Positions 24,348 through 35,505 of a DNA stretch of 64,000 nucleotides are shown here, piece after piece. The notes under the pieces were generated by a model. That model worked only from the letters and a program-made list of their open reading frames with translations, was not told the origin of the DNA and did not search any database. The stretch is from Bacteroidales bacterium (GTDB lineage: Bacteria > Bacteroidota > Bacteroidia > Bacteroidales > VadinHA17). The stretch covers positions 372,001 through 436,000 of the forward strand of contig JADJLX010000005.1 of the NCBI GenBank assembly GCA_016709865.1. The letters are read 5' to 3'. The position numbers and the translations under genes were made by a program. How positions within the stretch are numbered: the first letter of the stretch is position 1; each line of letters opens with the position of its first letter.

Positions 24348-26360
<2,013 letters not shown>

Positions 26361-26366
26361 TTATAC

Positions 26367-27503
26367 TTAGTTCCAAACCCCTTCAACTGAATATCCGCAC
26401 TTCTTACACTTCCCGCCCTGAATGGTGTTTGCTGCAATCCTGTAACCTTCTCTTTCCACCAGGCTTGAATTGCATGAAGGGCAAATAGTGTCAGACATCT
26501 CGTTCCCGGGAATATTTCCGGTATAGACATATTTCAATCCTTCATCTTTGGCAATACTGTAAATTAACGACAGTAAATCAACAGGTGTCGGAGGCAATTG
26601 TTCGAGTTTATGAAGAGGGTAGAACCTGCTGAAATGAACAGGAGTGTTTTTAAAACCATTTTCTCCAAGCCATCTGCACATTTTTCTAATCTCATCAGTA
26701 TCATCACTCCATCCGGGAATAACAAGATTTGTAATTTCCAGCCAGACTCCCATATCTTTAATAATCCTGAGGGAGTCGAGAACAGGCTGCAGTTTTCCTC
26801 CGGTAAGCTTAAGATAGGTACTTTCGTTGAATGCCTTCAGGTCAATATTTGCTGCATCAATTACACCACAAAGGTGCTTTAAAGGTTCGGGATTTATGTA
26901 ACCATTTGATTTGATGATGTTTCTTATTCCAGCTTTTCTTGCGAGGGCAGCAGTTTCATAAACATATTCAAAAAATGTTACAGGCTCTGAATAGGTGTAT
27001 GCGATTGATTTACAGTTATTTCGTTTGCATTCTTCTATCACCTTCTCCGGCATCAGATCATAGTTTCTGGTTTTATCAGGACTGGTTTGAGAAATAGTCC
27101 AGTTCTGACAATTAAGGCAAACCAGGTTACATCCTGCTGTAGCAATAGAGTAAGCTCTGGAGCCCGGAATAAAATGGTACAGAGGTTTTTTTTCAATGGG
27201 ATCAACGCTTACTGAACAGGGATTACCGTATGCCAGTGTATATAGTTTTGAGTTATGTACTTTCCGGTTATTGCATTTGCTTAATTCTCCCTCTTTCAGT
27301 ACACACTCGTTTGGGCAGATTCTGCACATTATTCCGCGGGCTGTCTCCTCCTGGTACATTGCAACCCTTTTGTAAATGCCCTGCTGTAAATATAGATTTT
27401 CCGGAATAAAAGCCTGACAGGGCAGGCAAATCATACCAGCTGAAAAAGCCATAGATCTTTTGATAAAAGTGCGTTTGCTGATATTGATTTTTATTGGTTC
27501 CAT
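26367..27503 (-). CDS. amrS: AmmeMemoRadiSam system radical SAM enzyme
   Basis: A 378-residue radical SAM enzyme. A first cysteine cluster (CRICPNEC, about residues 60-67, plus C77) precedes the radical SAM motif CNLVCLNC (C125, C129, C132), which holds the 4Fe-4S cluster that cleaves S-adenosylmethionine. A C-terminal zinc-knuckle pair (CPSC ... CKKC) ends the protein. This arrangement matches the AmmeMemoRadiSam family. The N terminus reads SKRTFIKRS followed by a moderately hydrophobic stretch, a close fit to a twin-arginine (Tat) leader with KR in place of RR. An exported or membrane-tethered radical SAM enzyme would be very unusual. Its partners Memo and AMMECR1 are encoded as one fusion upstream. 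The substrate is unknown. Confidence 0.88.
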   Translation of the reverse strand: MEPIKINISKRTFIKRSMAFSAGMICLPCQAFIPENLYLQQGIYKRVAMYQEETARGIMCRICPNECVLKEGELSKCNNRKVHNSKLYTLAYGNPCSVSVDPIEKKPLYHFIPGSRAYSIATAGCNLVCLNCQNWTISQTSPDKTRNYDLMPEKVIEECKRNNCKSIAYTYSEPVTFFEYVYETAALARKAGIRNIIKSNGYINPEPLKHLCGVIDAANIDLKAFNESTYLKLTGGKLQPVLDSLRIIKDMGVWLEITNLVIPGWSDDTDEIRKMCRWLGENGFKNTPVHFSRFYPLHKLEQLPPTPVDLLSLIYSIAKDEGLKYVYTGNIPGNEMSDTICPSCNSSLVEREGYRIAANTIQGGKCKKCGYSVEGVWN

Positions 27504-27508
27504 TTAAC

Positions 27509-27580
27509 CTTGCATTTTAACCTTTGACTTTGAACTTTGAACTTTAGGCTTTCGTCTCCGGTCTACCGTCTTCCGTCTTA
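27509..27580. repeat. intergenic word repeat (CTTTGAA and CCGTCTT units)
   Basis: Two low-complexity word runs lie side by side: CTTTGA/CTTTGAA units (27521-27546) and TCCGTCTTCC-like units (27551-27577). They separate the spermidine-synthase-like gene from the radical SAM gene. The second run is the same word family as the repeat before ffh. Confidence 0.65.
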
Positions 27581-27586
27581 AAACTA

Positions 27587-30010
27587 CTACTTGTTACCAA
27601 TTGTACCAAAAAGAATTCCTGCAAATATCATTATTGATAATAAATATATTGAAACAACTGTTCCAAACAGAGGAACTGTAAAACCTGATAATAGTATGAA
27701 TCCGAAAGCAGAACCTGATAGGTCAGCACTATAGGTGGCCGGGCATGAAGTCTGATCACCTTTATTCATCGTTAGCATTCTGAAAATACTGCCTGTGACT
27801 ATCGCCGGAACAAGAGCAGAAAGCGATAACAAAATGACCACCGTAATCCGATTTTCCAAATCAAGAATGTAATTGTACAACAACCCGGCTATTATGTAGA
27901 AAACTATCAGCATTAAGCACTTTCTTATTACGGTTATGGAGTTTATGAATCTGTTATCTGATATGGCTCCGATTGCGAGACCTGCCATCATACTCGCTAT
28001 TATTAAGCCTGTTAGCTGATACATATTCCCGATTGTAAGCTGCAGAGTGACAAGAAGTATTATCTCAAAACCAGCCATAGCTGAAGCAGTAAAGTACATC
28101 GTCATATTTCTCTTTCTTACAGTAAGAACAGGTGCTGCGAAGAATAGTATTATAATGATTAATACTGGGGTCTTCTCATTTAGATTTTTACTGAAATTAT
28201 AGGCCTGGAAATGATAATTTGCAATTGGAAACTCAGCACTGTTCTGCCTGACATTTCTGTCCATAAGTGCAATCGTCTCCCTTGACTTTTGACCTATAAT
28301 ATCATCAGCCAGATAATCAGGTCCGACATAAATATTTTGGATTTTTCCTGTCTCAATCATGCTGCAAAATGAAGTGGATAATTCGTTATCACTCGCAATG
28401 AAGTATAATTTGTTTCCGGCAACAGGCATAACCTTTTTAAAGACTGCTGAGAGACTGTTGAAAATTGATGAATAGAGATTCAGCGATTCTTTGTTAAGAT
28501 AATAATCACCCGGACCTGGTGAACACATAAAAATCCCTCCGGGATTGAGATGCTGCTTAACGTCATTAAAAAATTCTGTTGTGTAGTACCTGTTAAGAAG
28601 AAGAGTAGATGGAGGTGGAACAAGAACTATTACAACATCAACATTTTCCTTCATGCTTTTTATATATCTGAAAGCATCACTGTTAATTATAGTCAGATCT
28701 TTTGTCAGTGAATCTTTTCTGATATTTTCCAGACTGATCAGAGCCGGATCACGTTCGATATAAAATATCTTTTTTACAGGGTATTTTAGTATTTCAGGCA
28801 GATGTGATTTAAGGGATCCTGAAATGAGCAGTACTTTTTCCGGAGCCGGTCTCTGGATCATTGCATAATGAATATTTTCCTCCTTTTCTGCTGCATCATT
28901 CTTATATGAAAGTAAGCGCTGGTTATAGTATGTGCTTGATTCTCCCTTATATTCACCCTTTGAGATATTTCCATAAGGTGTGTCCTTTGAATACTTAATT
29001 CTGAGTCCGGGCATTAGTAACTGTCTGAAAAAAATATCAGGATTGGAGAGAATTATCACTGAGGCAATACAAAGTATTAATACTCTTGAAAATATTTTTA
29101 GTCTTTTGTTTATGATGTAATATGTAATGAGAGCGTAACCATGTGACATCACTATCAGAAGCAGCAAAATCTGGTAAGTATTAAGCAACCCTGCAGTAAG
29201 AATGGGAATCAGTAAACCTGATAATATGCCTCCGGCTGTCTCAATTGCGAATGATTTTCCCGCAACAAAATTGTTTTCAAAAGCAGCAAGAGTTGTTAAT
29301 TTAATAAAGGTAAAGCCTGAAACGAGACAGAACGGAATAAGGACCAGTAATGTGAAAATTATACTTTCGAGAAGTGATGGAGTTTGTCCCGGATTAAGAT
29401 AAAGCCTTGATAAGAGAACCAGCATTATAAGTGATATAAGAGGACTTAAGGAGAAGATCAGGTTAATCCGTTTTATATCAAAGTGTAATGATCTTCCTGC
29501 TAATGCAGAACCTGCAGATGAGCCGATGAGCCAGGATGCAAGGAATATACCTGTAATTAATTCATATCCCCCTGCAATATTGATCATCTCTCTGATCAGC
29601 AATAATTGTATTGCAGTGCTGAAAAAGCCAATTAAAAACAGATTTGTGCCTATATCAACATGGACAGTTGTACTATTTCGGATGCGATTCGTGGCACTTT
29701 CCTGTCGGTCGAAAATTCCTTTGAAGTATGGGAGATGCCATATAAAATGGATGATTCCCGTAAATGCCATACCTATCCCAAATTCCACATGCCATTTCAG
29801 TATTTGCTTTACAAAAGGAATATCCCACTTATAACTGATTTGCAGGGCCATAAATAGTCCGGCAAGAGCTGTAAGTATGAACGAAAGAGCAAGAATAGAA
29901 TTCCACAACTTCCTGTGAGTCTGATTAGTGTAGAAACCGTTCCGGTAGAACAGGTAGCTAATTAAATAAAAGAGGGAAGTTATAATTCCGGTGCCTATGA
30001 CATGATACAT
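27587..30010 (-). CDS. polytopic membrane protein with spermidine-synthase-like domain
   Basis: An 807-residue protein. Residues about 1-320 hold multiple hydrophobic helices. A spermidine-synthase-like Rossmann domain lies at about 350-590, and further helices fill 600-807. In the Rossmann part an acidic residue after a strand (YIERDPALI) and a later INSDAFRYI fit the SAM-binding pocket of the family. However, the glycine motif reads SGSLKSHL rather than GGGDGG, and the catalytic aspartate region reads VIVLVPPPST rather than a D-containing loop. Classical aminopropyltransferase activity is therefore unlikely. The gene lies two bases after the Memo-AMMECR1 gene and upstream of the radical SAM gene, suggesting a membrane partner of that system. 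Confidence 0.75.
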   Translation of the reverse strand: MYHVIGTGIITSLFYLISYLFYRNGFYTNQTHRKLWNSILALSFILTALAGLFMALQISYKWDIPFVKQILKWHVEFGIGMAFTGIIHFIWHLPYFKGIFDRQESATNRIRNSTTVHVDIGTNLFLIGFFSTAIQLLLIREMINIAGGYELITGIFLASWLIGSSAGSALAGRSLHFDIKRINLIFSLSPLISLIMLVLLSRLYLNPGQTPSLLESIIFTLLVLIPFCLVSGFTFIKLTTLAAFENNFVAGKSFAIETAGGILSGLLIPILTAGLLNTYQILLLLIVMSHGYALITYYIINKRLKIFSRVLILCIASVIILSNPDIFFRQLLMPGLRIKYSKDTPYGNISKGEYKGESSTYYNQRLLSYKNDAAEKEENIHYAMIQRPAPEKVLLISGSLKSHLPEILKYPVKKIFYIERDPALISLENIRKDSLTKDLTIINSDAFRYIKSMKENVDVVIVLVPPPSTLLLNRYYTTEFFNDVKQHLNPGGIFMCSPGPGDYYLNKESLNLYSSIFNSLSAVFKKVMPVAGNKLYFIASDNELSTSFCSMIETGKIQNIYVGPDYLADDIIGQKSRETIALMDRNVRQNSAEFPIANYHFQAYNFSKNLNEKTPVLIIIILFFAAPVLTVRKRNMTMYFTASAMAGFEIILLVTLQLTIGNMYQLTGLIIASMMAGLAIGAISDNRFINSITVIRKCLMLIVFYIIAGLLYNYILDLENRITVVILLSLSALVPAIVTGSIFRMLTMNKGDQTSCPATYSADLSGSAFGFILLSGFTVPLFGTVVSIYLLSIMIFAGILFGTIGNK

Positions 30011-30012
30011 GA

Positions 30013-31521
30013 CTATTTTCTCTTTTCTTCGAGAACGACTCCTTCATAGATAAATAATTCGGCATCTCTCCATCCGTCCCATCCGAGTCCTGCCTTGTCC
30101 CTCGAAGTGTATCCAAGAAATTCCTCAATGCTCCATCCATTCTCTGTTGCGACCTGGGGCAGCATGGTTCCCGATCTGGAGTCCTTCCTTATATAAATGC
30201 CATGTCGACCAAGGATGATCTCCTCTGGTTTATTAATTCTTTTAAGCGGACCAAGAACAGTTATCTCCATCTCTGCCACACCAAGTTCTTCAGATGTTAA
30301 GGGAGAAAACCGCGGATCTTCAAAAGCCGAGGAAAAGGCTGAAGCCCTTACAGCTTCATATAGTGGATCCTTAGAAATAAATCTGCCAATGCATCCTCTT
30401 AGTCTTCCTTCAATTTTCAGAGTGACAAATGCACCCATGGGTTCCTTTAAGTGGTCAGGAATCTTTCCGGCATCAATCCGGCTTTCATTTTTACCTGAAA
30501 AACCAGATTTAATGCTGTTCCCTGCAATAGAGAAGAGTATTTCCTTTTCCTTTTCAGTGAATGAAAATGACTCCTGAATATTTCCGGTCTTTTCTTTTTT
30601 CTGATTATTGTCGAAAAGCACAATGGCATTATAGCCAACAACTTCATCTTTGCTCCCGTATGATGAGTCTCCTGAATTTGTGTAGTCAATAATTTTGTAC
30701 TGAAGACTGGTGTTCTTTTCTGATAGATAGAGTAGTGTAAGTCCGGAGCTCCATCCGCACATACTTGTTGCCAGACCGTTTATCTGTTTCTCAGAATTCT
30801 TTTGTAAAGAGGTAAGAAAAGTCTTAGGATTGCCTGAGGCAATTCCATGCGCAGTAGCTTTGTCGGTCTCAACCGCATCCTTATAAGAAGGGTAATGTGA
30901 AAAATCGCTGCTGATTATAAACAGATTCTCATTTGTGAACCATGGTCTCAGTGCCTCAGCTATTTGCTTTATAGTCTTTTCATTATCCGTGCCAATAATA
31001 ATAGGAATAATCGGAGGCAGGTTAGTGAAGTATGACTGGATTAATGGAATCTGTACTTCAATACTATGCTCGCTGATATGCGATTTTACCGGAAAATTGA
31101 AAACACTATTCTCTTTAATTAGTTTATTGCCAATTTCTTTGTTTACAACAGCTTTCCCGAGTGGTGTGATATAATCCCCTGTATTGTAGACTGAAGCTCC
31201 GTCGAAAGCCATAACATGACTTGAACCAATTATAAAAATGTTCTTATATATTGTACTTTTGGGTATAGCAGATAACGCAGCAGCTGCCGTATTACCAGAA
31301 AATATATAACCGGCATGCGGAGAAATAATGGCCCTGACATAACCTGGAACGTCCGGCTTTTTACATTTTTCAAATAGCAGGTTTATATCTTTTATTAAAA
31401 TCTCTTTATCGGCAGAATAGAATCTGCCAGCTGCAACCGGCTGCCTGTCGGTTGAATTATTCTGTGAATAGGTTTCCATAATAGTGAATATTGAGAACAA
31501 AACCACTAGTACTATTCTCAT
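30013..31521 (-). CDS. AmmeMemoRadiSam protein B-A fusion (Memo domain plus AMMECR1 domain)
   Basis: A 502-residue protein joining two usually separate parts. An N-terminal signal peptide is apparent (MRIVLVVLFSIFTIM, then TYSQ, residues 1-20). The Memo-like domain (about 25-305) keeps metal-site residues equivalent to those of human MEMO1: H in SPHAGYIFSG (H69), H in GSSHVMAF, H in DFSHYPSY and C in MCGWSSG. The AMMECR1 domain (about 320-500) contains the family hallmark LRGCIG and a C-terminal GLGWDGW segment. It is the first gene of the operon with the membrane protein and the radical SAM enzyme. Family membership is clear. The biochemical role is unknown, and export is inferred only from the leader. 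Confidence 0.9.
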   Translation of the reverse strand: MRIVLVVLFSIFTIMETYSQNNSTDRQPVAAGRFYSADKEILIKDINLLFEKCKKPDVPGYVRAIISPHAGYIFSGNTAAAALSAIPKSTIYKNIFIIGSSHVMAFDGASVYNTGDYITPLGKAVVNKEIGNKLIKENSVFNFPVKSHISEHSIEVQIPLIQSYFTNLPPIIPIIIGTDNEKTIKQIAEALRPWFTNENLFIISSDFSHYPSYKDAVETDKATAHGIASGNPKTFLTSLQKNSEKQINGLATSMCGWSSGLTLLYLSEKNTSLQYKIIDYTNSGDSSYGSKDEVVGYNAIVLFDNNQKKEKTGNIQESFSFTEKEKEILFSIAGNSIKSGFSGKNESRIDAGKIPDHLKEPMGAFVTLKIEGRLRGCIGRFISKDPLYEAVRASAFSSAFEDPRFSPLTSEELGVAEMEITVLGPLKRINKPEEIILGRHGIYIRKDSRSGTMLPQVATENGWSIEEFLGYTSRDKAGLGWDGWRDAELFIYEGVVLEEKRK

Positions 31522-31604: not shown

Positions 31605-32060
31605 TCAGATAAGAACGATTGATTCTTTCAGAACTTCTCCCTTTTCATCGGTGCCGTAGATTTTTATTCCCATACTAAGACCTGGTGTGCCAATCATATC
31701 AATTATGGGACTAAGGGCATCTTTTAGATCTTCAACCTCCATATTATCATATTCTTCAATATTGAAGTAAAGGTGAATCAGTAATGTATATTCACTTTCC
31801 TGAATAGATGATAAGGCTTTTACTATTTTGGCAAGCCAGATTGAAGAAGAAGTATTGAAGTATTCAAGATTAAATCGAAGGTTGGTTGTATGCCGCGGGT
31901 TTTTAATATAAGCCAAGACCCATTTTAGCACATTTTCATACAGATCAGCAGCGTTTTCAGGGATCGACCTGCCGGAAAATATCAGCTCTCCAGTCAGATG
32001 ATTTAAATCAATCTGAGGGGTTTTTACTGTGGGTTCAACAAAATAACTCTTTAGTTCCAC
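31605..32060 (-). CDS. SiaC-family (DUF1987) regulatory phosphoprotein
   Basis: A 151-residue cytosolic protein of the DUF1987/SiaC family. It shows the family's FVEPTVKTPQIDLN start, then GRSIPENAADLYENVLKWV and FNLEYFNTSSSIWLAKIVKAL. In Pseudomonas SiaC is phosphorylated by the kinase SiaB and dephosphorylated by the phosphatase SiaA, and it controls a diguanylate cyclase. The TSS after FN is in the region where the regulatory phosphothreonine or serine lies in SiaC. No SiaA or SiaB gene is adjacent here. It is divergent from argS. A candidate -7 box lies 45 bases upstream. Confidence 0.85.
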   Translation of the reverse strand: MELKSYFVEPTVKTPQIDLNHLTGELIFSGRSIPENAADLYENVLKWVLAYIKNPRHTTNLRFNLEYFNTSSSIWLAKIVKALSSIQESEYTLLIHLYFNIEEYDNMEVEDLKDALSPIIDMIGTPGLSMGIKIYGTDEKGEVLKESIVLI

Positions 32061-32293: not shown

Positions 32294-34081
32294 ATGGAGA
32301 TTATCCTTAAAGAAAAGGTAAAAGAAGCTGTTCAGATTATTTATAACAGCAAAGTTGAAGACGATCTGATACAGATTCAGGAAACCAGAAAAGACTTCAA
32401 AGGTGATTTTACCGTAGTTGTTTTCCCGCTTTTGCGTTTTTCAAAGAATACTCCGGAAAAAACCGGAGAAATGATCGGATCATATATTGTTGATAACTAT
32501 CCTGCTGTATCAGGTTTCAATGTCATAAAGGGTTTTTTGAATCTTGAAATTTCAGATAAATGGTGGATTGAGTATTTCGAACAGATGGCAGTTGAGAAGA
32601 GTCATCTTGAAAGCTGTCAGGTCAAAAATCCAGAGACAATTCTCGTTGAATATTCATCGCCAAATACAAATAAGCCATTACATCTTGGCCATATCAGGAA
32701 TAACCTCCTGGGATTCTCATTGTACCGTATAATGTCTTCATGCGGACATAAAGTAATCAAGACTAATATTGTTAACGACAGGGGAATTCATATCTGCAAA
32801 TCTATGCTTGCCTGGCAGAAATTTGGTAACGGAGAGACACCTGCTTCATCAGGAATGAAAGGTGACCATCTCGTTGGCAAATATTATGTTCTTTTTGAGA
32901 AGGAATACAGGGCACAGATAGAGGAGATGGTGAGGGCTGGTGCAAATGAAAATGATGCAAAGAATTCAGCTCCTCTGATGAAGGAGATCCGCGAGATGCT
33001 TCTTAAGTGGGAGGCAGGCGATAATGAAGTGATCACTCTCTGGAAAATGATGAATTCATGGGTATATGCCGGTTTTGATGAGACTTATAAGAGACTTGGT
33101 GTAGATTTCGACATAATCTATTATGAATCTGATACATATAAAACTGGCCGGGATATCGTTCTTGATGCTCTGAAAAAAAATGTTCTTTATCAGAATGAAG
33201 ATAAATCTATCTGGGCTGACCTTACACCTGAGGGCCTTGACCAGAAGCTTCTCCTTCGTTCAGATGGAACTGCTGTCTATATGACTCAGGATCTGGGTAC
33301 AGCGGTTGCCCGATATAATGAATATAAATTCGATAAGAATATTTATGTGGTTGGAAATGAACAAAACTATCATTTCCAGGTACTTAGAGCAATTCTTAAA
33401 AGAATGGGATATAGCTGGTCCGATGGTCTTATCCATTTCTCATACGGAATGGTTGAGCTGCCTGAAGGAAGGATGAAATCGCGTGAGGGTACGATTGTTG
33501 ATGCCGACGACCTGATTACTGAGATGCAGGAGACAGCAAGGGAAGTCTCTCTGGAACTCGGAAAACTGTCTGATTTTTCAGATATAGAAAAAGAGGACAT
33601 TTTCCGTAAAATAGGTCTGGCAGCTCTAAAGTATTATATTCTTAAAGTTGATCCCCGTAAGAATATGACTTTTAATCCTGCTGAATCGATTGATTTTAAT
33701 GGAAATACAGGCCCGTTCATTCAGTATACCTATACCAGGATTAAGTCTGTTTTCAGAAAGGCTGAGCAAACAGGTGTTCATTTTGATTCAGGAAAGTTGT
33801 CCGAAACAAAAGCAGGGGAGAAGGAGATTGATCTGATTAAGTTACTCAGAAAGTTCTCTGAAACGGTATCAGCTGCTGCCAATGATCAGAGCCCTGCATT
33901 AATAGCAAATTACTGTTATGATCTTGCAAGGGAGTATAACCAGTTCTACCACGATTTTTCAATTCTTGGTGAAACTGATCCTGATATCAGAAACTTCAGA
34001 CTTGTATTGTCAAAAGTAACAAGTGAAATACTTTTTACGGGAATGTGGTTATTGGGAATTGAGATGCCGGAGAGAATGTGA
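32294..34081 (+). CDS. argS: arginyl-tRNA synthetase
   Basis: A 595-residue class I synthetase that loads arginine on tRNA-Arg. An N-terminal Arg-tRNA-synthetase add-1 domain (about 1-85) is followed by the nucleotide site with the HIGH-type motif PLHLGHIRNN, and then GRMKSREGT in place of KMSKS. The anticodon-binding DALR domain begins near 455 (FIQYTYTRIKSVFR). Length is normal. It ends at 34081 in the edge of a word repeat that separates it from ffh. Confidence 0.97.
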   Translation: MEIILKEKVKEAVQIIYNSKVEDDLIQIQETRKDFKGDFTVVVFPLLRFSKNTPEKTGEMIGSYIVDNYPAVSGFNVIKGFLNLEISDKWWIEYFEQMAVEKSHLESCQVKNPETILVEYSSPNTNKPLHLGHIRNNLLGFSLYRIMSSCGHKVIKTNIVNDRGIHICKSMLAWQKFGNGETPASSGMKGDHLVGKYYVLFEKEYRAQIEEMVRAGANENDAKNSAPLMKEIREMLLKWEAGDNEVITLWKMMNSWVYAGFDETYKRLGVDFDIIYYESDTYKTGRDIVLDALKKNVLYQNEDKSIWADLTPEGLDQKLLLRSDGTAVYMTQDLGTAVARYNEYKFDKNIYVVGNEQNYHFQVLRAILKRMGYSWSDGLIHFSYGMVELPEGRMKSREGTIVDADDLITEMQETAREVSLELGKLSDFSDIEKEDIFRKIGLAALKYYILKVDPRKNMTFNPAESIDFNGNTGPFIQYTYTRIKSVFRKAEQTGVHFDSGKLSETKAGEKEIDLIKLLRKFSETVSAAANDQSPALIANYCYDLAREYNQFYHDFSILGETDPDIRNFRLVLSKVTSEILFTGMWLLGIEMPERM

Positions 34082-34155
34082 GAAGTCGGAAGACTGAAGA
34101 CGGAAGACGGAAGAAGAAAACTTCGGACTTCGGTCTCCGGTCTTCGGTCTCAGGT
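34082..34155. repeat. intergenic word repeat (GGAAGACGGAAG / CTTCGGTCTCCGG)
   Basis: The left half is GAAGACGGAAGACGGAAG-like units, the right half is CTTCGGTCTCCGGTCTTCGG-like units, and they are partly complementary, so the element could fold into a long imperfect hairpin. It lies between argS and ffh and stays open in frame, giving a false N-terminal extension of 36 residues to ffh. Confidence 0.75.
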
Positions 34156-34185
34156 TTATTAGAAATGTATATAATTAAATATCAT

Positions 34186-35505
34186 ATGTTTGAAAATCTA
34201 AGTGAACGGCTGGAGAAATCCTTTAAACTATTAAAGGGACAGGGCAGGATATCTGAAATAAATATCGCTGAGACACTTAAGGAAGTACGTCGTGCACTTC
34301 TCGACGCTGATGTTAACTTCAAAATTGCAAAACAATTCACTGATACGGTTAAACAGAAGGCTCTGGGGCAGGAGGTACTGAAGTCGGTTAATCCATCTCA
34401 GATGATGGTAAAAATAGTCCACGATGAGCTTGTTGATCTCATGGGTGGAGATAAGACTGACATCAATATTAAGATCAATCCATCGGTGATTCTTATTGCC
34501 GGACTTCAGGGGTCAGGAAAAACAACCTTCAGCGGAAAACTTGCTAAATGGGTTAAAAGCAAAAGAAGTAAGAATCCGCTGCTTGTTGCCTGTGATGTTT
34601 ACAGACCTGCTGCTATTGAGCAGTTGAAGATAATTGGTGCCCAGATAGAAGTTCCGGTATACACTGAAGATGGGAACCTCAATCCTGTTACTATTGCAAA
34701 AAATGCAATCAGGGAAGCTAAGCTGAAGGGACATGATCTGGTAATTATAGATACGGCAGGACGTCTGGCTATTGATGAGCAGATGATGAATGAGATTGCA
34801 GCAGTCAAAGCCGCTGTTTCACCTCATGAAATACTCTTTGTGGTAGATTCAATGACTGGTCAGGATGCTGTCAATACAGCAAAGGAATTCAACGACAGAC
34901 TTGATTTTGATGGAGTTGTTTTGACAAAACTTGACGGTGATACAAGGGGAGGAGCTGCCTTATCAATAAAGTCGGTAGTTAATAAACCGATAAAATTTGT
35001 CAGCTCAGGAGAAAAAATGGATGCAATTGACATCTTTTATCCTGAAAGGATGGCTGACAGGATCCTTGGAATGGGTGATATAGTTTCTCTTGTTGAAAAA
35101 GCTCAGGAGCAATTTGACTCCGAGGAAGCTAGAAAACTCCAGAAAAAAATTGCTAAGGACCAGTTCGATTTTAACGATTTTATCGCGCAGATTCAGCAGA
35201 TTAAGAAAATGGGTAATGTCAAGGACCTTATGGCTATGATTCCTGGTGTCGGCAAAGCTGTGAAAGATCTTGATATCGATGATAATGCGTTTAAGGGAAT
35301 TGAAGCTATAATAAGAAGCATGACTCCTGAGGAAAGAATTAATCCTGTTGTACTTAATGGAAGCAGGCGCAAAAGAATTGCTCTGGGAAGCGGAACAAGC
35401 GTTCAGGAAGTTAATAAACTGCTGAAACAATTTGACGAGACAAGAAGGATGATGAAAATGATGACTAAACCTGGCAATGCAGCCAGACTTATGGGTAAAA
35501 AATAA
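34186..35505 (+). CDS. ffh: signal recognition particle protein Ffh
   Basis: A 439-residue GTPase of the signal recognition particle, which brings nascent membrane and secretory proteins to FtsY and SecYEG. The N domain begins [24 protein letters not shown]. The G domain shows [18 protein letters not shown] and [10 protein letters not shown]. The methionine-rich M domain is near the C terminus ([18 protein letters not shown]). The ATG at 34186 is chosen because it gives the family start. The open frame continues upstream through a word repeat to a GTG at 34078, which would add a 36-residue low-complexity leader of no coding character. Confidence 0.97.

Follow-up and report, generated by a model that had tools for sequence, protein, structure and literature searches.

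Apparent export of a radical SAM enzyme and its partner proteins by an AmmeMemoRadiSam operon found in a Bacteroidales bacterium and, as relatives, in other bacterial phyla

Introduction

Radical S-adenosylmethionine (SAM) enzymes are generally placed in the cytoplasm, since it holds SAM and low-potential electrons and is where iron-sulphur (Fe-S) clusters are assembled; to our knowledge, no supply of SAM and electrons outside the cytoplasm has been described. One such enzyme, of family TIGR04337, forms the AmmeMemoRadiSam system together with AMMECR1 (TIGR04335) and Memo (TIGR04336); Burroughs et al. 2019 is cited on Memo-Ammecr1 systems in the excerpt of PMC7159879 consulted. The operon reported here lies on the minus strand of a 64,000-nucleotide stretch of DNA from a Bacteroidales bacterium (assembly GCA_016709865.1, contig JADJLX010000005.1, positions 372,001 to 436,000), hereafter the window, and has members of all three families above their cut-offs with the catalytic motifs kept. 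Unlike in the usual system, both the radical SAM enzyme and a Memo-AMMECR1 fusion carry leaders, and their genes are linked to that of a polytopic membrane protein, here called G2, which was not found beside leaderless AmmeMemoRadiSam members in the flanks examined. The operon is probably an extracytoplasmic version of the system, placed at the outer face of the inner membrane. If exported, the radical SAM enzyme would need SAM and electrons outside; if the reading is true, the operon would offer a handle on the chemistry of Memo and AMMECR1, two proteins related to human ones (MEMO1). Searches of open-licence papers, outside which most subscription papers fall, brought up none on an exported radical SAM enzyme.

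Other described systems resemble parts of the locus. Pyruvate formate-lyase-activating enzyme (PDB 3c8f) matches the radical SAM domain over residues 122-282 with an E value of 1.8e-11; unlike the window enzyme, it presumably has neither a leader nor flanking cysteine quartets. TtrB, of a different family, carries a twin-arginine translocation (Tat) signal of the KR type, with the first arginine replaced by lysine as in the SKRTFIK of the window. The membrane polyamine aminopropyltransferases (NF002956) and the fused major facilitator superfamily (MFS)/spermidine synthases (NF037959) share with G2 a spermidine-synthase-like domain in a membrane protein; G2 scores 69.4 bits against a cut-off of 472 and 14.2 bits against a cut-off of 40, respectively, and differs in the loss of both aspartates of the DLTDP stretch (to L and P) and in the MFS-like halves that flank the domain. 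The flavin mononucleotide (FMN) and polyferredoxin arrangement of NosR, with FMN_bind and Fer4_5 domains, occurs at radical SAM loci of Omnitrophota, once fused to the enzyme itself.

Organization of the operon

The open reading frames (ORFs) of the window give the transcription order Memo-AMMECR1 fusion, G2, radical SAM enzyme and ligA, with gaps of 2 bp between the first two genes and 83 bp between G2 and the radical SAM gene. The features of the three operon genes are as follows.

30013..31521, minus strand: Memo-AMMECR1 fusion, 502 amino acids; Memo at residues 26-301, AMMECR1 at 328-494 (TIGR04336, TIGR04335 and ligands)
31462..31521, minus strand: predicted general secretory (Sec)-like signal peptide of the fusion, residues 1-20 (hydrophobic leader in related loci)
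27587..30010, minus strand: G2, polytopic membrane protein, 807 amino acids, about 17 transmembrane helices (TM) (AlphaFold2; PF01564)
29657..30010, minus strand: extension of three helices at the G2 N-terminus (residues 1-118), containing H32, H74, H88 and H92 (histidine conservation)
29045..29653, minus strand: G2 residues 120-322, spanning TM4-TM10, of which TM4-TM9 make up the first MFS-like half (homologous halves; MFS structures)
28226..29008, minus strand: G2 domain resembling spermidine synthase (residues 335-595), with a predicted position outside the cytoplasm (SpeE alignment; topology, which a control weakens)
27590..28183, minus strand: G2 residues 610-807, spanning TM11-TM17, of which TM12-TM17 make up the second MFS-like half (topology, halves and MFS structures)
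26367..27503, minus strand: AmmeMemoRadiSam-type radical SAM enzyme, 378 amino acids (TIGR04337, 346.8 bits, cut-off 220; CxxxCxxC)
27411..27503, minus strand: KR-type Tat-like leader of the radical SAM enzyme, residues 1-31, SKRTFIK (9-15) followed by a hydrophobic stretch (homologues; codon-phase pattern)

The radical SAM enzyme and its leader

The named loci used for comparison are the best 80 of 273 confirmed loci from a scan of genome contigs. The predicted Fe-S cysteines of the window enzyme (C125, C129 and C132 of CxxxCxxC) are kept at all 45 Bacteroidota loci, all 7 other leadered loci and all 80 Omnitrophota loci (132/132). The Tat-like leader proposed in the initial annotation is borne out by the homologues, since the motif [STNG]KRxF[LIV][KRQ] is present in 118 of the 120 nearest listed, the two misses being an SKL and an unrelated N-terminus. 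What that annotation overlooked is the variant nature of the signal: SKRTFIK departs from the Tat motif (S/T)RRxFLK by lysine in place of the first arginine. The RR form is seen in Prolixibacter denitrificans (L038) and P. bellariivorans (L039), two cultured species that have the leadered operon. An excerpt of PMC1182353 describes KR in place of RR as a natural Tat variant in TtrB, of tetrathionate reductase, and lysine for either arginine of SufI as slowing Tat export without blocking it.

Comparison of the leader with those of 12 relatives (264 codon pairs) gave 72, 35 and 134 mismatches at codon positions 1, 2 and 3, respectively, with 85 synonymous and 96 nonsynonymous codon differences, and the 36 bp upstream gave 99, 100 and 102 mismatches by phase, that is, no phase. 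As the changes fall mainly at third codon positions within the leader and show no phase upstream, this pattern shows that the conserved leader is translated. It also speaks against a better start codon downstream, the circumstance that would have undone the leader of the initial annotation, and a start-codon artefact was rejected on this ground.

Co-occurrence of leader and G2

A leader classifier scored 39 of the 45 Bacteroidota loci as Tat-like and one (L034) as Sec/anchor; four of the five not scored as leadered (L026, L028, L029 and L030) are N-terminally cut or masked. A G2-family protein is present at 42 of these 45 loci, and in the window as in most leadered Bacteroidota relatives its gene lies, by sequence comparison, between those of the radical SAM enzyme and the Memo-AMMECR1 fusion. 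Archaea and many bacteria have members without a leader: at L053-L080 (archaea, Aquificota and others) a leader was found in 0 of 28, and no G2 match in the flanks examined.

Genomes with two copies afford a comparison within one cell, for which, as for TatC, the data come from the genomes of relatives of the window. In the Bacteroidota sample, at least 66 of 296 genomes exceed the TIGR04337 cut-off, and both copies were read, with Tat motifs judged by eye, in six two-copy genomes (G034, G278, G317, G359, G498 and G506); G271, G336 and G472, also two-copy genomes among the matches listed, were left out of this reading. In each of the six, one copy (L038, L222, L224, L226, L228, L231) has a leader, G2 and a leadered Memo-AMMECR1 fusion, and its partner (L221, L223, L225, L227, L229, L230) is without leader and without G2 within about 4 kb. 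The leaderless copy of P. denitrificans (L221, beside the leadered L038) could thus serve as an internal control for the leadered operon. In Planctomycetota, Tat or Sec leaders are present in 11 of 14 lower-scoring copies (L277-L290) and in 0 of 16 top-scoring ones (L261-L276).

Leader type and TatC

Omnitrophota, of which at least 163 of 193 genomes hold TIGR04337, allow the leader type to be set against the Tat machinery. A first set was made up of 80 genomes with a single copy drawn from each, preference being given to frames with room for a leader; TatC was detected in 25 genomes and not found in 55, and one radical SAM copy was truncated. All 79 readable N-termini were scored as Tat or Sec/anchor. 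The motif [STN]R[RK]x[FL], sought at any point of the 75 residues that precede the core, was detected in 14 of 25 TatC-positive against 0 of 54 TatC-negative genomes, with p=3.6e-9 for a pattern that was tightened towards the published consensus after a first look and so was not fixed in advance. The first, looser pattern gave 14/25 against 7/54 (p=1.9e-4), and the pattern with the KR form added gave 14/25 against 1/54 (L187). Furthermore, among the matches listed, 5 of 45 TatC-positive Omnitrophota genomes (G045, G075, G101, G114 and G222) have tatC no more than about 5 kb away from a TIGR04337 gene, as compared with about 0.3 expected by our own arithmetic.

A tree was built from 97 rows: the window, 15 of the 45 Bacteroidota, 7 of 7 others, 25 of 25 TatC-positive and 22 of 55 TatC-negative Omnitrophota (L147 and L150 being excluded first from the latter), 13 of 25 top-scoring and 14 of 28 leaderless rows. 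The leader label requires three changes on this tree, and the leader type seven among the Omnitrophota rows. Such persistence of a leader while the route changes is expected if crossing the membrane is what matters.

Of 48 genomes that carry named loci, 43 have TatC; among the five without a TatC match are those of L045 and L046, whose leaders are non-Tat. L034, also with a non-Tat leader, has TatC.

The Memo-AMMECR1 fusion

The fusion scores 216.8 bits with TIGR04336 and 151 bits with TIGR04335, both above the curated cut-offs. H69, H102 and H209 align with the histidines of human MEMO1, and C255 is taken to be the fourth metal ligand. Where rows have a residue at these positions, the four do not vary (38/38, 38/38, 39/39 and 39/39, respectively, at the named loci; 36/36 each in Omnitrophota), and C377 of AMMECR1 is kept in 38/38 named and 35/35 Omnitrophota loci. 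LRGCIG is literal in 69 of 77 fusions, LRGCTG in 2 and unmatched in 6. Among L001-L052, every locus open to judgement (38 of 38) has a hydrophobic leader on the fusion, as have 35 of 36 in Omnitrophota. The signal peptide at residues 1-20, the metal-site residues and the LRGCIG motif of the initial annotation thus agree with the relatives, and both leaders of the operon are conserved when compared across homologues. On sequence evidence, then, the fusion pairs a conserved Sec-like leader with intact metal and cysteine sites. By eye, a lipobox-like cysteine was seen in several relatives.

The membrane protein G2

The only Pfam match of G2 at E<=1 is PF01564 (Spermine_synth), over residues 375-529. 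The AlphaFold2 model (pLDDT 84.7, pTM 0.78), with two homologous six-helix halves that match MFS structures and flank the spermidine-synthase-like domain, identifies G2 as an MFS-fold protein with an inserted domain of this kind. The initial annotation had correctly called it a polytopic membrane protein, missing both the fold and the domain. The positive-inside rule places the domain outside in 44 of 44 and 44 of 44 cases, the partial protein P0123 having been left out of this transmembrane-topology analysis.

The two aspartates of DLTDP, which we take to be the catalytic acids of SpeE, correspond to L463 and P466 in the window G2. The first is kept in 1 of 49 G2 rows and replaced in 48 (replaced in 85/88 of a wider set), and the second is kept in 3 of 49 rows and in 18/44 wider Omnitrophota rows; L042 and one L125 protein keep both. 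SpeE-like polyamine synthesis by the window G2 was therefore rejected, because of the lost acids, which a few relatives still have. By comparison, the adenine-site acid D445 is conserved in 48/49 rows and 85/88 of the wider set, and the adenosyl acid E419 is E in 49/49 rows of one alignment.

The N-terminal three-helix extension is usual in Bacteroidota and missing in L031, L034, L042 and the non-Bacteroidota rows. H74 and H88 are invariant (34/34), and H32 and H92 are kept in at least 90 percent. That the extension may be a b-type haem site is a guess from these residues; its weak Pfam matches are to b561 and DUF4405 (10/34 members each) and to the unrelated COX7B (15/34), no fold match was found at E<=0.001, and haem there is thus without a significant family or fold match. 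In Geobacter sulfurreducens, an excerpt of PMC10599522 shows GSU2502, annotated as a spermidine synthase, within GSU2501-GSU2504 among omcT/omcS and another cytochrome gene.

Redox modules near the radical SAM gene

In Omnitrophota, a gene of the DsbD_2 (CcdA-like) family stands at 49 of 80 loci, and all five proteins tested match PF13386; CxxxC near the first helix is present in 50/50 and C-x-P in 49/50 of the family proteins. A FMN_bind/Fer4_5 gene, called NosR-like here on the assumption that its domain order warrants the name, occurs at 12 of 20 loci of a later Omnitrophota sample, 9 of 80 of the first set and 1 of 30 Planctomycetota loci; it was found in none of L001-L110 and not in the window operon. 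At L147 (3675-5993), a single frame of 773 amino acids combines FMN_bind, two Fer4_5 stretches and Radical_SAM, and the order of its hydrophobic and basic stretches would put the radical SAM and FMN domains on the same side. In known systems, modules of the DsbD_2 and NosR-like kinds transfer electrons through the membrane, a property that fits a radical SAM enzyme in need of reduction outside. G2 and Memo occur within 5 kb on either side at 45/80 and 36/80 Omnitrophota loci, respectively.

Proposed mechanism and alternative explanations

The radical SAM enzyme is very probably exported. In all likelihood it would fold and receive its Fe-S cluster in the cytoplasm, leave by the Tat route and meet the Memo-AMMECR1 fusion at the outer face of the inner membrane; the fusion may then take part in modifying an envelope protein or lipid. 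Slightly favoured is the view that a dedicated, lineage-specific module carries the electrons for SAM cleavage across the membrane, perhaps the histidine-rich extension of G2 in Bacteroidota and the DsbD_2 or NosR-like FMN/ferredoxin proteins in Omnitrophota. It is suggested only tentatively that G2, whose outward spermidine-synthase-like domain retains the acids for adenosyl binding without those for catalysis, either exports SAM or passes it on. Equally tentative is the wider notion of a class of radical SAM enzymes outside the cytoplasm, to which an MFS transporter with an outward SAM-binding domain of spermidine-synthase descent would bring SAM, and dedicated transmembrane modules, whether a haem-like extension, a CcdA-like protein or a NosR-like FMN/ferredoxin protein, would bring low-potential electrons. 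A reaction on the outer face, as the initial annotation had envisaged, gains support from the conserved and coding leader, the leader type that tracks TatC, the differing paralogue pairs and the redox modules beside or fused to the radical SAM enzyme.

Several observations weigh against this reading. We know of no extracytoplasmic source of SAM. No G2 was seen at the leadered loci L045 and L051, whose contigs measure 7.4 and 6.0 kb, respectively; of the 80 Omnitrophota loci, 35 gave no G2 match within about 5 kb, and 7 gave a match to neither protein when Memo was included. TatC was not found in G002, G007 and G010 in spite of the Tat-like leaders of L002, L007 and L010, which does not fit unless these drafts are incomplete. 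The independent phylogenetic pairs all point in the same direction and are too few for significance. E419 of G2 is kept in just 32/44 of the wider Omnitrophota set. The positive-inside rule also places the catalytic domain outside in 16 ordinary seven-helix membrane SpeE proteins (L241-L256), so that the topology of G2 alone does not discriminate and is weakened as a stand-alone proof. Of 79 Omnitrophota leaders oriented by charge, 8 are neutral and 2 are reversed. Finally, the later Omnitrophota sample consists of 20 copies excluded from the first set, nearly all of which have short frames, and in 14 of them (L291-L297, L299-L304 and L309) the radical SAM gene is split: the upstream ORF supplies one membrane helix, a linker and the EAKYW-like first conserved strand, and it overlaps, or comes close to overlapping, a catalytic ORF that has no leader and whose chain may stay inside.

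The split class bears most directly on an alternative in which the radical SAM enzyme is tethered at the inner face by an uncleaved anchor, its catalytic domain remaining in the cytoplasm with SAM and reductant, and G2, with its transporter fold, exports the product to the Memo-AMMECR1 fusion. The leaderless catalytic ORFs beside an anchor ORF agree with such a tether, having a G2 match in 13 of 14 and a leadered Memo-AMMECR1 fusion in 4 of 14 of the stretches examined. It is nevertheless unlikely, as the confinement of Tat motifs to TatC-positive genomes (14/25 against 0/54) is hard to explain by a plain anchor, the N-side of the leader is the more positive in 69 of 79 Omnitrophota enzymes, and the order of stretches at L147 sets the radical SAM domain on the side of the FMN domain. 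The presence of TatC in 14 of 14 split-class genomes is accounted for neither by the tether nor by export. The split cores form nearly one group, with two changes (one against the leadered rows), and the remaining 6 of the 20 copies have no anchor-ORF partner. A programmed frameshift in this class is thought unlikely, because the starts overlap or lie near the stop, several of them after a purine-rich, Shine-Dalgarno-like stretch as read by eye.

Less probable still is export of the radical SAM enzyme without use of SAM outside, as an Fe-S/redox scaffold with the Memo-AMMECR1 fusion, the G2 domain having another ligand or being a relic. The lack of any external SAM source that we know of and the replacement of the first SpeE aspartate (48/49 and 85/88 rows) would suit such a scaffold; against it stand the CxxxCxxC retained by all 132 relatives in the three groups compared, the near-constant D445 and the redox modules beside or fused to the enzyme. 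An ordinary cytosolic AmmeMemoRadiSam system with leaders that are start-codon artefacts or chance, to which the leaderless members of archaea and many bacteria might point, is very improbable given the codon-phase conservation of the leader, its motif in 118 of 120 homologues listed and the differing paralogue pairs within genomes.

Neighbouring genes and minor observations

Two genes adjoin the operon on the same strand.

31605..32060, minus strand: SiaC-like regulatory phosphoprotein gene, an upstream neighbour only (PF09345, 82.1 bits)
24348-26357, minus strand: ligA (named by eye)

The SiaC-like family is also present at 31 of 45 Bacteroidota loci. The gap between G2 and the radical SAM gene (27504-27586) contains short GTTCAAA tandem repeats. 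In Omnitrophota, a pilin family is found at 18 of 80 loci, and genes of putatively exported radical SAM enzymes adjoin, by eye, pseudopilin and GspE/GspF-like genes at L121, L149, L153, L158, L160-L165 and others. Elsewhere in the window, the ORF at 34078-35505 (Ffh) is listed with a GTG start that falls in a stretch bearing GGAAGACGG, and an internal methionine before FENLSERL is its probable true start.

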